Assembly: GCA_031459855.1 (NCBI GenBank)
Contig: JAVKHP010000001.1
Coordinates: 2,501,906-2,565,905 of the forward strand
Length of the DNA: 64,000 nucleotides
Reading direction: 5' to 3'
From: Armatimonadota bacterium
Lineage (GTDB): Bacteria > Sysuimicrobiota > Sysuimicrobiia > Sysuimicrobiales > Humicultoraceae
Part shown: positions 28,075 through 33,319 of the stretch, one piece after another
Layout: the number at the start of each line of letters is the position of its first letter
How positions within the stretch are numbered: position 1 is the stretch's first letter
The notes under the pieces: generated by a model
What the model saw: the letters and a program-made list of their open reading frames with translations, nothing else
Databases searched by the model: none
Told to the model about the DNA's origin: nothing
Translations under genes and position numbers: made by a program

Positions 28075-29541
28075 GTGACCGCGCCAGCAACCACGGACGG
28101 TGCCCCGCCGGGCGAGTGGACGCGGCGCTGGGGGGCGTTGCTGCTGGCCACCGCGGCGCTGGGCACAGCTGGCCTGGGCCTGCCGTCGCTGGCAGGCGAC
28201 GACGAGTTCTACGGCGCCATCGCCCGCCACGCCGTGGCGACCGGCGAGTGGATTACGCTCGCCCACCCCGAGCACCCGGGCTGGCTGGTCGACAAGCCCC
28301 CGCTCACCTTCTGGCTGATGGCCATCTCGCTGCGGGTGGGGGGTGACCATCCGGGGGTGCTCCGCGCCTGGCACGTGGCGCTGGCGCTGGCGACCGTGGT
28401 GGCCACCTGGCGGCTCGGGGCGCGGGCTCTCGGCCGTGAAGGCGGACTGCTGGCGGCCCTGCTGCTGGCCACCAGCGGACAGTTCTTCTATGTTGCGCTC
28501 GATCCGGCACAGGACGTGCCGCTGACCTTCTTCCTCACGGCAGCGATGGCGGCCTACGTCGACTATCGGGCAACGGGCCACACCCGCGCGACGGTGCTGG
28601 CTGGCCTGGCCGTGGCGCTGGCGGTGCTCACCAAGGGCATCGTCGCCCTCGCCGTCGTCGGCCTGGTCGTGGCCGCGGACCTGGCACTGCCCCCACGCCG
28701 CGGCGTCTGGCGCTGGCGGGACGCAGCCATCGGTGCGGCGGTCTTCCTCGTGGTGGCCGCCCCGTGGTTCGTCGCGGGCGCCCTGCGCCAGGGGCGGCCG
28801 TTCGTGGACACGTTCTTCCTGTGGGGCACCCTGGGCGTGGGCCGGTTCTTCCAGGGCGTCACCCCGAAGCTGCCCTACTGGCAGGCGCTGGTCGTCTTCG
28901 TGCCCACCCTGATGGTGGGCGTCCTGCCGTGGACGGGGTTGCTGCCGGGTGCAGCGACCGAAGGGTGGCGCGCCGTGCGGGACGGCGTCCCGGTGCTGCG
29001 CGTCTGCGGCCTGTGGGCCGGGGTGTACTTCCTGTTGCTGTCGGTCTCGCCTGGCGACAAGATGATGCACCACCTGTTGCCGCTCTACCCGGCGGCGATG
29101 GTCCTGGCCGCGCGCGTCGTCCTGACCGCCGACGGGCACCCGGCGCGCCTGCGCCTGCCGGCAGGCGTGGCGCTGGCGGCGGTGGTCCCGGCTGCGGCCG
29201 GCGTGGCCATCATGCTGGCGCGCTATCCAGAGGTCAGCCGGACGGTGCTGCCCGCGGCCGCGCCGTTCGTGGTGGCACTGCTGGTGGCGTTGCTGGCGTT
29301 CGCAGGCGCCGCCCGGCGCGGCCGCGCGCGTGTGGCGGTGGCGGCCGCTGCGGCGCTGATGGTGGTGGCACACGCGTCCGCCGAGGCCTTCGTGCTGCGC
29401 CGCTGGGACGCGCTACACCGCACCGGGCAGACGGTCCGCCGGGCCGGAAGTGTGCTATCCGCTGCGCCGACGCGCGACGTTCCCGGTGCCGATCGCCGCG
29501 TCGGGCGCAAGGTTGACGCTCCTGGAGCGGCGCCAATATAA
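28075..29541 (+). CDS. ArnT/PMT-type membrane glycosyltransferase
   Basis: The 488-residue membrane protein has about 11-12 helices and the first-loop acidic motif LAGDDEFYGAIARHAV typical of GT83/PMT_2 enzymes, which transfer sugars from polyprenyl-phosphate carriers. VDKPPLTFWLMAI and PFVDTFFLWGTLGVGRF are further family segments. The start is GTG 28075 with AGGA five bases upstream. Acceptor and donor are unknown; roles in envelope glycolipid or protein glycosylation are possible. The last codons overlap the promoter of the following T-box leader: the stop TAA lies inside its TATAAT. Confidence 0.85.
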   Translation: MTAPATTDGAPPGEWTRRWGALLLATAALGTAGLGLPSLAGDDEFYGAIARHAVATGEWITLAHPEHPGWLVDKPPLTFWLMAISLRVGGDHPGVLRAWHVALALATVVATWRLGARALGREGGLLAALLLATSGQFFYVALDPAQDVPLTFFLTAAMAAYVDYRATGHTRATVLAGLAVALAVLTKGIVALAVVGLVVAADLALPPRRGVWRWRDAAIGAAVFLVVAAPWFVAGALRQGRPFVDTFFLWGTLGVGRFFQGVTPKLPYWQALVVFVPTLMVGVLPWTGLLPGAATEGWRAVRDGVPVLRVCGLWAGVYFLLLSVSPGDKMMHHLLPLYPAAMVLAARVVLTADGHPARLRLPAGVALAAVVPAAAGVAIMLARYPEVSRTVLPAAAPFVVALLVALLAFAGAARRGRARVAVAAAAALMVVAHASAEAFVLRRWDALHRTGQTVRRAGSVLSAAPTRDVPGADRRVGRKVDAPGAAPI

Positions 29542-29542
29542 T
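29513..29542 (+). promoter_or_regulatory. Strong sigma70-type promoter of the T-box / tRNA / ilvE-leuS unit
   Basis: TTGACG (29513-29518) and a perfect TATAAT (29537-29542) are 18 bases apart. This is one of the best promoters in the window. The -35 lies inside the end of the glycosyltransferase gene, and the -10 contains that gene's stop codon. Transcription should start near 29549. Confidence 0.8.
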
Positions 29543-29735
29543 GGCTTCCGGGTTTGACGAACTGCACACTGGCGAGGATCGGGAGCAGTAGGTCGGGAGC
29601 CTGCCTGCGAGCGAGCCGGTGGAGGGTGCGAACCGGTGGCGGGGCCGGCCGAACTCGCCCGGGAGCTGCGGGTGCGCGGGCGTCGGGTGACGCCTCAGGG
29701 CCCGCCGCCTCGCCCACGAGACGGGCGGCAGAGCG

Positions 29736-29838
29736 GACGGACGCACGGGGCAGTAGCTCAGCGGGAGAGCGCCCGCTTGGCGTGCGGGAGGTCGAGGGTT
29801 CAATTCCCTCCTGCTCCACCACGAAGGCCGCGTCCGTC
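29736..29838 (+). other. Nine-base-pair helix bracketing the tRNA inside the leader
   Basis: GACGGACGC (29736-29744) and GCGTCCGTC (29830-29838) are perfect complements. They flank the tRNA with two bases on the 5' side and eight on the 3' side, immediately before the antiterminator. This is the position of stem III in ordinary T-box leaders, so the tRNA replaces that stem's loop. Confidence 0.8.
29747..29821 (+). tRNA. tRNA-Ala (anticodon GGC), CCA encoded
   Basis: A 75-base cloverleaf. The acceptor is GGGGCAG/CTGCTCC with the G3-U70 wobble pair that AlaRS recognises. The D stem is GCTC/GAGC, the anticodon stem CCCGC/GCGGG with loop TTGGCGT (anticodon GGC), and the T arm GAGGG TTCAATT CCCTC. 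Discriminator A and an encoded CCA follow. All stems are fully paired, so it looks functional. It is co-oriented with, and inside, the T-box leader, between stem I and the antiterminator, and should be transcribed from the same promoter whether or not the downstream terminator fires. Confidence 0.95.
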
Positions 29839-29859
29839 AACCGGGGTGGTACCGCGGAG

Positions 29860-29899
29860 GCCGCCTTCGCCCTTGGGGGAAGGCGGCGCACTGTTTTTT
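29860..29899 (+). terminator. T-box-controlled intrinsic terminator
   Basis: GCCGCCTTC (29860-29868) pairs with GAAGGCGGC (29879-29887), extended by GCCC/GGGG in the loop, and a TTTTTT tract follows at 29894-29899. The 5' arm is also needed for the antiterminator, the normal mutually exclusive arrangement. Confidence 0.92.
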
Positions 29900-29915: not shown

Positions 29916-30848
29916 ATGCAACCATCGAGCCGGATCTGGTTTGACGGCAGGCTGGTGCCATGGGACCAGGCCACGGTGCACGTCGCGGCCCATGTGATCC
30001 AGTACGGGTCCAGTGTCTTCGAGGGCATCCGCTGTTACGAGACGGCGACCGGCCCCGCCGTCTTCTGCCTGTACCCCCACCTGCGGCGTCTGGCGGACTC
30101 GTGCAAGATCTTCCGGATGGCGCTGCCCTACAGCACCGACGACCTGGCCCGGGCCGTGCTGGAGACCGTGGGGGCCAACGGCCACCGGTCGTGCTACATC
30201 CGGCCCGTGGTGTTCCGGGGTGTGGAGTCGTGGAGCGTCGAGCCGCGCCGGTCGCCGCTGCACGTCGCCATCATCACCATCGAGTGGGGCCGCTACCTGG
30301 GGCCCGAGGCGATCGAGCAGGGCGTCGACGTCATGGTGAGCTCCTGGCGGCGGATGGCGCCCGACACGCATCCCGGCATGGGCAAGATCGGCGGGAACTA
30401 CGTCAACTCGGCGTTCGTCGTGATGGAGGCCGTGGACAACGGCTACGCGGAGGGCATCGCCCTGGACGTGCACGGGTACGTCAGCGAGGGGAGCGGCGAG
30501 AACGTCTTCGTGGTGCGCGACGGCGTGATCTACACGCCGCCGCTCGCCGCCTCCATCCTGGGGGGCGTGACGCGTACGGTGGTGATGACCCTGTGCCGCG
30601 ACCTCGGGATCGACGTCCGCGAGACCGCGATCCCCCGCGAGCTGCTCTACGTGGCCGACGAGGTCTTCTTCACGGGCACCGCCGCCGAGATCACCCCGGT
30701 GCGCTCGGTGGACAAGGTGCCCATCGGTACCGGCACGCGGGGGCCCATCACCCGTCGGCTGCAGGAGGAGTTCTTCGGCATCGTGGAGGGGAGGACGCCC
30801 GATCGGCACGGCTGGCTGACGCCGGTGCCCGTGTTGAGCCGACCGTGA
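29916..30848 (+). CDS. ilvE: Branched-chain amino-acid aminotransferase
   Basis: The 310-residue class IV PLP aminotransferase carries out the last step of Leu, Ile and Val synthesis (or the first of their breakdown). It opens IWFDGRLVPWDQATVHVAAH with the family motif HVIQYGSSVFEGIRCYET, given here in parts. PLP Lys lies in GMGKIGGNYVNSAF, and EGSGENVFVVRDG and TVVMTLCRDLGI complete the pattern. It is the first gene after the T-box terminator, with AGGGGGCGA as ribosome site. Sharing a leader with leuS supports control by leucyl-tRNA charging. Confidence 0.94.
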   Translation: MQPSSRIWFDGRLVPWDQATVHVAAHVIQYGSSVFEGIRCYETATGPAVFCLYPHLRRLADSCKIFRMALPYSTDDLARAVLETVGANGHRSCYIRPVVFRGVESWSVEPRRSPLHVAIITIEWGRYLGPEAIEQGVDVMVSSWRRMAPDTHPGMGKIGGNYVNSAFVVMEAVDNGYAEGIALDVHGYVSEGSGENVFVVRDGVIYTPPLAASILGGVTRTVVMTLCRDLGIDVRETAIPRELLYVADEVFFTGTAAEITPVRSVDKVPIGTGTRGPITRRLQEEFFGIVEGRTPDRHGWLTPVPVLSRP

Positions 30849-30868: not shown

Positions 30869-33319
30869 ATGCGCTACGATCACCGGACCGTGGAGGCCAA
30901 GTGGCAGGCGCGGTGGGAAGCCGACCGGCTCTACCACGCGCCCGACTTCGACCCGCGGCCCAAGTTCTACTTCCTGACCATGTACCCGTACCCGTCGGGC
31001 GACGGGCTGCACATCGGCCACTGGTACGCCATGGCGCCCACCGACGCGGCCGCGCGCTACAAGCGCATGCGCGGGTACAACGTCATGCTCCCCATGGGGT
31101 TCGACGCCTTCGGGCTGCCGGCGGAGAACGCGGCCATCAGCCGGGGCGTGCACCCGTACCGGTGGACGATGGAGAACATCGCCCGCATGCGCCGGCAGCT
31201 GCGCTCCATGGGCGCCATGTGGGACTGGGATCGCGAGGTCATCACCTGCCAGCCCGAGTACTACCGGTGGAACCAGTGGTTCTTCCTGAAGATGTACGAG
31301 CGCGGGCTGGCCTACCGGGCGCTGGCGCCCGTGGACTGGTGCCCACAGGACAACACCACGCTGGCCCGCGAGCAGGTGGTGGGGGAGGAGCGCGTCTGCG
31401 AACGGTGCGGCACCCCGGTGGTCAAGAAGAACCTCGAGCAGTGGTTCCTCAAGATCACCGCCTACGCCGAGGAGCTGCTGGACTTCTCGAAGATCCAGTG
31501 GCCCGAGCGGGTCGTCACGCTGCAGCGGAACTGGATCGGGCGCAGCGAGGGGGTCGAGTTCGCCATTCCGGTCCGCGACCACCCCGGGGTGACGTTCAGG
31601 GTGTTCACGACCCGTCCCGACACGGTCTTTGGCATGACGTTCTGCGTGCTGGCACCCGAGCACCCGCTGGTCGACCGGCTGGTCACGCCGGAGCGGCGGG
31701 CGGAGGTGGAGGCCTACAAGTTCAAGGCCGCCCGCGAGTCGGACATCGAGCGCCTGTCCACCGAAAAGGAGCGCGACGGGGTCTTCATCGGCGCCTACGC
31801 CATCAACCCCATGAACGGTGCGGCGGTGCCCATCTACATCGCCGACTACGTGCTGCTGACCTACGGCACGGGCGCCATCATGGGCGTGCCCGCCCACGAC
31901 GAGCGCGACTTCGACTTCGCCCGGAAGTATGGTCTGCCGATCCCGGTGGTGGTGGCGCCGCCGGGCTGGGACGGGCAACCGCTCGCCGCGGCCTACCTGG
32001 GCGAGGGCACCATGGTCAACTCCGGCGAGTTCGACGGGCTGCCGTCGCCGGTGGCGTGGCAGCGCATCGCCGACGCCATGGTGGCTCGCGGCATCGGCGA
32101 GCGGAAGGTCCACTACCGGCTGCACGACTGGCTGATCAGCCGGCAGCGCTACTTCGGGACGCCCATTCCCATCATTTACTGTGGGCGCTGCGGCACCGTG
32201 CCGGTGCCCTACGAGGACCTGCCGGTGGTGCTGCCCGAGGACGCCGAGTTTCGCCCCACCGGCGAGTCGCCCCTGAAGTACCACGAGGGGTTTCGGCGCA
32301 CGACCTGCCCGCGGTGCGGGAGCGAGGCCGAGCGCGAGACCGATACCATGGACACGTTTGTCGACTCGTCGTGGTACCAGTATCGCTACGTGAGCCCCCA
32401 CTACGACCAGGGGCCGTTCGACCCCGAGGTGGGGCGTTACTGGCTGCCCGTGGACCAGTACACCGGCGGGGTCGAGCACGCGGTCATGCACCTGCTGTAC
32501 ACGCGGTTCTGGACCAAGGTCATGCGCGACCTGGGCCTGGTGTCGTTCGACGAGCCCATGCTGCGCCTGTTCAACCAGGGGATCATCCTGGGCCCCGACG
32601 GCCAGCGCATGAGCAAGTCGCGCGGCAACGTCGTCAACCCCGACGAGCTGGTGGCCGCGCACGGCGCTGACGTGGTCCGGGCGTACCTGATGTTCATCGG
32701 CCCATGGGACGAGGGCGGCCCCTGGGATCCTCAGGGCATCGGGGGCATCGTCCGCTTCCTGGGACGCGTCTGGACCCTGGTGACCCAGACGGCCGGCCGG
32801 GCCACCCAGGGGGATGGCGACGGGCGCGCCGCCCGCGAGCTCGAGCACTGGGTCCACCGCACGGTCGCGCGGGTCACGGCGGACCTGGAGGAGTTCCGGT
32901 TCAACACCGCGCTGGCGGCGCTCATGGAGCTCACCAACACGCTCCAGCGTCTGCGCGAGGCGCTGGCGGGTACCCCGACGTGGCGTGACGCCGTGCGGGC
33001 CCTGGTGCTGATGCTGGCGCCGTTCTGCCCCCACATGGCCGAGGAACTCTGGGTGGAGCACCTCCACGAGCCCTACAGCGTGCACACCCAGGCCTGGCCG
33101 ACCTACGATCCGGCGAAGGCCGCCGCCGAGGAGCTGACGCTGGTCCTGCAGGTGGACGGCCGGGTGCGCGACCGCATCCAGGTGCCGGCCGGGATCAGCG
33201 ACGAGGAAGCGCGGGCGCGGGCCCTGGCGAGCCCGCGGGTCCGTCGATTCATCGACGGGCGGGAGGTCGCCACCGTCATCGTGGTGCCCGGGCGGCTGGT
33301 GAACATCGTCACGCGGTAG
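30869..33319 (+). CDS. leuS: Leucyl-tRNA synthetase
   Basis: The 816-residue enzyme charges tRNA-Leu. HIGH is at 48-51 (GLHIGHWYAM) and MSKS at about 581-584 (GQRMSKSRGN). The editing CP1 domain is present (about 220-415) with TTRPDTVFG and the conserved GVPAHDERD. The C-terminal anticodon-binding and LeuRS-specific domains complete a normal bacterial length. The start at 30869, 20 bases after ilvE, has AGGGGGG upstream. A zinc-type cysteine set (CERCG, CGRCG, CPRCG) is visible. Control is through the upstream T-box. Confidence 0.97.
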   Translation: MRYDHRTVEAKWQARWEADRLYHAPDFDPRPKFYFLTMYPYPSGDGLHIGHWYAMAPTDAAARYKRMRGYNVMLPMGFDAFGLPAENAAISRGVHPYRWTMENIARMRRQLRSMGAMWDWDREVITCQPEYYRWNQWFFLKMYERGLAYRALAPVDWCPQDNTTLAREQVVGEERVCERCGTPVVKKNLEQWFLKITAYAEELLDFSKIQWPERVVTLQRNWIGRSEGVEFAIPVRDHPGVTFRVFTTRPDTVFGMTFCVLAPEHPLVDRLVTPERRAEVEAYKFKAARESDIERLSTEKERDGVFIGAYAINPMNGAAVPIYIADYVLLTYGTGAIMGVPAHDERDFDFARKYGLPIPVVVAPPGWDGQPLAAAYLGEGTMVNSGEFDGLPSPVAWQRIADAMVARGIGERKVHYRLHDWLISRQRYFGTPIPIIYCGRCGTVPVPYEDLPVVLPEDAEFRPTGESPLKYHEGFRRTTCPRCGSEAERETDTMDTFVDSSWYQYRYVSPHYDQGPFDPEVGRYWLPVDQYTGGVEHAVMHLLYTRFWTKVMRDLGLVSFDEPMLRLFNQGIILGPDGQRMSKSRGNVVNPDELVAAHGADVVRAYLMFIGPWDEGGPWDPQGIGGIVRFLGRVWTLVTQTAGRATQGDGDGRAARELEHWVHRTVARVTADLEEFRFNTALAALMELTNTLQRLREALAGTPTWRDAVRALVLMLAPFCPHMAEELWVEHLHEPYSVHTQAWPTYDPAKAAAEELTLVLQVDGRVRDRIQVPAGISDEEARARALASPRVRRFIDGREVATVIVVPGRLVNIVTR

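Follow-up and report, generated by a model that had tools for sequence, protein, structure and literature searches.

A predicted leucine T-box leader with a tRNA-Ala gene in stem III recurs in several bacterial phyla

The leader of the ilvE-leuS operon in the window (the whole 64,000-nucleotide stretch of DNA analysed here) carries a complete tRNA-Ala(GGC) gene within a predicted leucine T-box riboswitch, and the same arrangement is found in bacteria of several phyla. Judged from sequence, the tRNA-bearing leucine T-box is a real, conserved and apparently undescribed variant, and it is probably a leader with two outputs, in which a leucine sensor and a tRNA-Ala precursor are combined in one RNA. 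An earlier reading of this DNA from its letters alone (the sequence-only reading) knew of no T-box with an internal tRNA. We likewise found none described in the open-access literature searched, and term searches of the TBDB paper, a 2020 T-box review and a 2008 in silico survey turned up no embedded tRNA gene.

The features of the leader are collected in Table 1. Its central part runs GAGCG-GACGGACGC-2 nt-tRNA-8 nt-GCGTCCGTC-AA-CCGGGG-UGGUACC (29731-29853).

Table 1. Predicted elements of the ilvE-leuS leader and operon, in window coordinates.
Feature	Position	Strand	Basis
Sigma-70-type promoter TTGACG-18-TATAAT, for the whole leader	29513..29542	+	11/12 consensus match
T-box stem I, AGTA at 29587-29590	29566..29669	+	RF00230 39 bits, E=3.2e-7
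Specifier codon CTC (Leu)	29654..29656	+	Sequence; fits the single tRNA-Leu(GAG) gene
Interdomain region, place of stem II and IIA/B pseudoknot	29670..29730	+	Position only
GAGCG, the RRRxG purine string 5' of stem III	29731..29735	+	Sequence; motif per PMC7583486
Stem III 5' arm GACGGACGC	29736..29744	+	Perfect 9-bp pairing with 29830-29838; covariation in relatives
tRNA-Ala(GGC), stem III apical domain; anticodon 29779-29781, CCA 29819-29821	29747..29821	+	ARAGORN, Rfam
Stem III 3' arm GCGTCCGTC	29830..29838	+	Perfect 9-bp pairing with 29736-29744; covariation in relatives
AA 3' of stem III (RRRxG-stem III-AA motif)	29839..29840	+	Sequence
Antiterminator	29841..29876	+	RF00230 14.3 bits at 29823-29874; fold energy
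Antiterminator A1 helix	29841-29846/29871-29876	+	
T-box bulge UGGUACC	29847-29853	+	
Antiterminator A2 helix	29854-29859/29865-29870	+	
Intrinsic terminator, overlapping the antiterminator	29860..29899	+	9-bp stem 29860-29868/29879-29887, T6 29894-29899
ilvE, branched-chain aminotransferase, operon gene 1	29916..30848	+	ORF; orthologues downstream in relatives
leuS, leucyl-tRNA synthetase	30869..33319	+	ORF; leuS downstream in relatives

Searches with the T-box covariance model RF00230 at permissive settings gave a match to stem I upstream of the tRNA, with 39 bits and E-values of 3e-7 for the region and 4.7e-7 for the whole genome. This score is below the Rfam gathering score of 93 because the insert and the high G+C content split the match. 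Among relatives with the same layout 12 of 15 loci score above the gathering score, and in the best of them (129 bits) the model spans positions 1-219 across the tRNA. The CTC specifier and the leuS gene downstream match in amino acid, and UGGU at 29847-29850 is complementary to a tRNA ACCA end. Antiterminator and terminator are mutually exclusive, as 29860-29876 is common to both, with predicted energies of about -14 and -19 kcal/mol, respectively. On its sequence features, the window leader is a leucine T-box of the transcriptional class with a predicted antitermination function.

Genome-wide, eight T-box hits had an E-value of 2e-6 or better, the window stem I among them, and no tRNA was found inside the other T-box loci read in this genome. 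The genome holds about ten T-box leaders (L001-L013), of which the eight best reach only 37-54 bits against the gathering score of 93; the RF00230 cut-off misses T-boxes in such high-GC genomes.

According to PMC7583486, stem III is a variable region of T-boxes but is framed by conserved residues, in an RRRxG-stem III-AA motif that directly precedes the antiterminator. The sequence-only reading had noted a perfect 9-bp helix around the tRNA at the usual place of stem III, and this helix is indeed present, in the setting of the motif and with arms that covary among relatives. Since it lies between RRRxG and AA it is stem III, with the tRNA in place of the loop. Ordinary T-boxes of the same genome have a plain stem III hairpin at this point, for example CCCGCCGGTCG-gagc-GACCGGCGGG-AA in L003. 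For the comparison among genomes the arms were anchored on the last [AG]AG[ACT]G before the tRNA and on the AA before the T-box motif. Over 65 distinct arm pairs from the listed loci the helix averages 4.9 bp, compared to 2.2 bp (sd 0.19, maximum 3.1 in 2000) when the 3' arms are permuted among genomes, a control that corrects for kinship only in part; helices of 7 bp or more make up 34% versus 4% after permutation. Furthermore, pair positions change among A-U, G-C, C-G and U-A across relatives. An unanchored search for the longest helix around the tRNA gave spurious longer helices in several loci, and the RRRxG and AA anchors were used instead. In three loci (L058, L061 and L062) inserts of roughly 40-100 nt, partly hairpin-rich, lie between CCA and the stem III 3' arm; the short stem III arms (GATAGC/GCTATC in L058) are still complementary despite the inserts.

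The tRNA gene itself is intact, as had been claimed. It scores 68.8 bits with RF00005, the ARAGORN call agrees, and the sequence provides a cloverleaf, G3-U70, the GGC anticodon and an encoded CCA. Sub-threshold Rfam matches that might be read as a permuted tmRNA or a plastid element proved to be the tRNA-Ala itself. A census over stretches of the window genome (97.7% complete assembly) found 47 tRNA genes, among them one tRNA-Ala each for GGC, TGC and CGC, so that the embedded gene has no second GGC copy there. With an anticodon-specific pattern a single tRNA-Ala(GGC) was also found in eight other genomes with the embedded layout (Syntrophomonas wolfei, Thermosyntropha, two Desulfofundulus, Desulfallas, Desulfotruncus, one Symbiobacterium-like and one Anaerolineae); two Ktedonobacterales have two copies each. 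As the only copy, the embedded tRNA would therefore normally have to be expressed and released.

The layout is not peculiar to the window genome. We scanned one genome per GTDB species with an isotype-blind pattern consisting of a tRNA T-arm, CCA and then the T-box motif within 65 nt. At least 120 stretches matched, and most of the 80 listed carry a tRNA by ARAGORN; reversed-pattern controls gave 0 matches. Eight loci in which ARAGORN found no tRNA were set aside (L080, L083, L088, L104, L119, L137, L144 and L147), and L091, at a contig edge, was left out of the count. The matches listed, together with the relatives of the window, comprise 89 loci with a tRNA followed by a T-box motif, and the tRNA is tRNA-Ala(GGC) in 86 of these. 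The other three, two with tRNA-Leu (L092 and L150) and one with tRNA-Pro (L151), have no T-box context and no leuS. This predominance among the matches listed and the relatives, with the empty reversed-pattern control, rules out chance juxtaposition.

A CTC specifier is present in all 86 listed embedded loci (84 by regular expression; L094 and L152 by eye). Downstream, leuS follows in 77 of the 86 and ilvE in two more, on truncated contigs. Six of the remaining seven lie on contigs that stop within 1.2 kb, and in L079 no leuS is present over 1.7 kb; in L105 and L115, whose leaders are similar to that of L079, leuS lies at 1.8-2.0 kb. The embedded layout was found in 51 of 63 genomes of the class of Syntrophomonas wolfei (reversed-pattern control, 0), in 16 of 301 genomes of the phylum of an Anaerolineae genome, and in 19 of the 43 genomes of the phylum of the window, all of one order, where the pattern missed at least four further relatives with long trailers or at contig ends. 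It thus occurs in Bacillota, Chloroflexota, Sphaerobacter and the window's own phylum, with carriers that include Syntrophomonas, Thermosyntropha, Desulfofundulus, Desulfallas, Symbiobacterium, Ktedonobacter, Dictyobacter and Sphaerobacter as well as Anaerolineae, Caldilineales, Coprothermobacterota and Armatimonadota bins; a few odd taxon labels (e.g. Proteobacteria) belong to unverified bins. Within the window's order the leader has matches in other genomes with the tRNA in the same place, and a comparison of related leuS leaders, as the sequence-only reading had proposed, shows that this position recurs. Collectively, the embedded layout is common to several phyla, with tRNA-Ala(GGC) and CTC throughout the listed loci.

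In several Chloroflexota a second tRNA gene accompanies the leader. At L126:5107-5480 a tRNA-Ala(CGC) without encoded CCA lies upstream of stem I, and tRNA-Ala(GGC) lies in stem III. A tRNA-Ala(CGC) before stem I is also seen in L081, L118, L125, L127, L129, L143 and L148, so that in leaders of this type two tRNA-Ala genes flank the leucine sensor.

In the dual-output leader that we favour, transcription would run from a single strong promoter through stem I with its CTC specifier, stem III with tRNA-Ala(GGC) as its loop, and the antiterminator/terminator switch. If the switch works as predicted, uncharged tRNA-Leu(GAG) would pair through its anticodon with the stem I specifier CTC and through its ACCA end with the UGGU bulge, so that the antiterminator is favoured and the polymerase reads on into ilvE-leuS; with charged tRNA-Leu the terminator would prevail. 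The tRNA-Ala precedes the terminator and should therefore be transcribed whether or not the terminator fires, a point on which the layout bears out the earlier claim, and RNase P together with 3' maturation enzymes would release it in both outcomes. One tRNA-Ala would be made per initiation, and aborted leaders would not be wasted. Leucine would set only the expression of leuS and ilvE, promoter strength would set tRNA-Ala output, and leuS output would be the product of promoter strength and read-through. The helix arms would keep stem III intact as a scaffold of the aminoacylation sensor, and could join both halves of the leader after tRNA excision. As the T-box choice is made while the leader is being transcribed, and maturation needs RNase P and 3' enzymes, the tRNA is likely excised only after that choice; if RNase P cut rapidly beforehand, stem I would no longer be coupled to the antiterminator.

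Predicted folding gives a mixed picture for this mechanism. The isolated tRNA-Ala folds as a cloverleaf (-33.9 kcal/mol). In the minimum-energy fold of the window leader the acceptor and anticodon arms are broken and no cloverleaf is formed, and although such secondary-structure energy models ignore tRNA tertiary contacts, this misfold still counts against the dual-output leader. Among the listed loci the predicted fold of the leader contains the acceptor arm in 56 of 85 cases and both arms together in 30 of 85; in the Syntrophomonas wolfei leader both tested tRNA arms reach about 0.97.

Parts of this arrangement are familiar. With leucine T-boxes of the RF00230 family the leader shares stem I with CTC, the RRRxG-stem III-AA motif, UGGUACC, mutually exclusive antiterminator and terminator, and ilvE/leuS as downstream genes; it differs in that a complete tRNA gene replaces the stem III loop and the leader would also be a tRNA precursor. 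In Escherichia coli metY-nusA and thrU-tufB, a tRNA and a protein gene are under one promoter and the tRNA is cut from the mRNA. The window layout resembles these operons in its shared promoter and its expected tRNA excision, but there the tRNA lies outside any riboswitch helix, whereas here it lies between sensor and expression platform. A 1997 paper by Condon and co-workers, cited in PMC4419217, concerns processing of the Bacillus subtilis thrS T-box leader. Cleavage there reportedly falls between sensor and terminator and leaves a shorter downstream mRNA. It is reportedly made by an endonuclease near the terminator and releases no tRNA, whereas here the cut would be tRNA maturation. The leader would represent a riboswitch with another functional RNA gene in its structural core, in wide natural use, and it apparently has been overlooked although the Rfam T-box model matches many of these loci; embedded tRNAs ought to be accommodated in T-box databases and in annotation pipelines. 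It suggests that stem III may carry large RNA inserts, which could be of use in RNA engineering, and it poses a testable question, namely how one transcript can serve as a regulatory sensor and also be cut up for an essential tRNA, and which of the two comes first.

As to why the layout persists, a frozen accident, which is compatible with the dual-output mechanism, is quite possible, although we lean somewhat against it. The tRNA would have landed in an insert-tolerant hairpin loop, where it shares the promoter, and the layout would bring no advantage; on the same tentative footing, it would persist since deletion of an essential single-copy tRNA is lethal. The variability of stem III among T-boxes (PMC7583486) is consistent with this, as are the further long inserts tolerated beside the tRNA in family f2 and the existence of escapes. 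In three genomes that belong to the same family, G001, G004 and G007, the orthologous T-box still precedes ilvE-leuS, with an ordinary hairpin as stem III at the corresponding position (L195, AAGCG-GACAGCGGGTC...GACCCGCCGTC-AA). In G001 and G004 tRNA-Ala(GGC) is a standalone gene of a different allele, located upstream on the contig in the same orientation. In G001 it is separated from the T-box motif by about 0.3 kb, and the T-box there has its own promoter. Family f7 has tRNA-Ala(GGC) as an independent gene with a promoter of its own, and no T-box precedes leuS. Against an accident, the layout has been kept across several phyla and in most genomes of the Syntrophomonas wolfei class, though escape is evidently possible.

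These variants bear on two further claims. The tRNA does cap stem III, as expected of a structural part of the leader, but plain hairpins serve in G001, G004 and G007. Unlinked tRNA and T-box in relatives, which had been named as evidence against a genuine association, do occur (f7 and the same three genomes); however, f7 and the lineages with a T-box without tRNA nest inside embedded ones in a LeuS tree, which is sampled mostly from embedded loci and from which origins across phyla cannot be counted, and they are therefore read as later losses within the window's phylum. Embedded, tRNA-lost, T-box-lost and unlinked states together provide a natural experiment.

A more ambitious proposal, which we regard as doubtful, makes tRNA maturation a part of the switch, such that tRNA-Leu occupancy and tRNA-Ala excision influence each other in an ancient, selected dual-function RNA. 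An RNase P cut may, for example, reset or commit the T-box and determine where the leuS mRNA begins and how stable it is. If true, alanine-tRNA supply would be tied to leucine-controlled synthetase expression. Regulated coupling in general, in which tRNA-Leu binding or terminator choice alters how the embedded tRNA is processed, or in which leuS responds to the processing of tRNA-Ala, seems unlikely to us. The same tRNA is paired with the same specifier in all 86 listed loci, and in many loci only short spacers separate stem III from the tRNA ends, which puts processing sites near the sensor domain. Yet spacer length varies from 0 to about 100 nt, more than would be expected of a tightly tuned geometry, and a single origin with subsequent inheritance accounts for the constant pairing without any function. 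The proposed coupling of tRNA-Ala supply to leucine is not supported: with the tRNA placed before the terminator, the layout ties its output to how often the promoter fires and not to the leucine decision.

It is very improbable that two transcripts are involved, with the tRNA behind an internal promoter of its own and merely overlapping the T-box. In line with the claim of one strong promoter for everything, the only promoter-like site between 29300 and 30000 is TTGACG-18-TATAAT upstream of stem I (11/12; shuffles 0.0), and a promoter is found at the same position in most relatives. Among the listed loci, a site of 10/12 or better lies upstream of stem I in 43 of 79, and just 4 of 79 have one of similar quality between specifier and tRNA, almost all others having none there. 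These four, all Ktedonobacterales (L076, L127, L128 and L143; 10/12), possibly do have an internal tRNA promoter.

That the tRNA disrupted the switch and left a dead T-box, the leader being merely promoter, tRNA and terminator, is extremely unlikely, since CTC and the T-box motif persist in the 86 listed loci, stem I, RRRxG-AA, covarying stem III and the terminator are present in the loci examined, and where the T-box decayed it vanished. Such a state is seen in G018, G021 and G024 (L211, L212 and L213), in which tRNA-Ala(GGC) and a terminator precede ilvE-leuS, with stem I and the T-box motif absent before these genes; the riboswitch has apparently decayed there while the tRNA was kept.

L205:480-850 (G015, family f6) has repeated copies of the tRNA 3' end near tRNA-Ala(GGC) before the T-box motif. 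The repeats resemble the attachment-site duplications of an integrative element.
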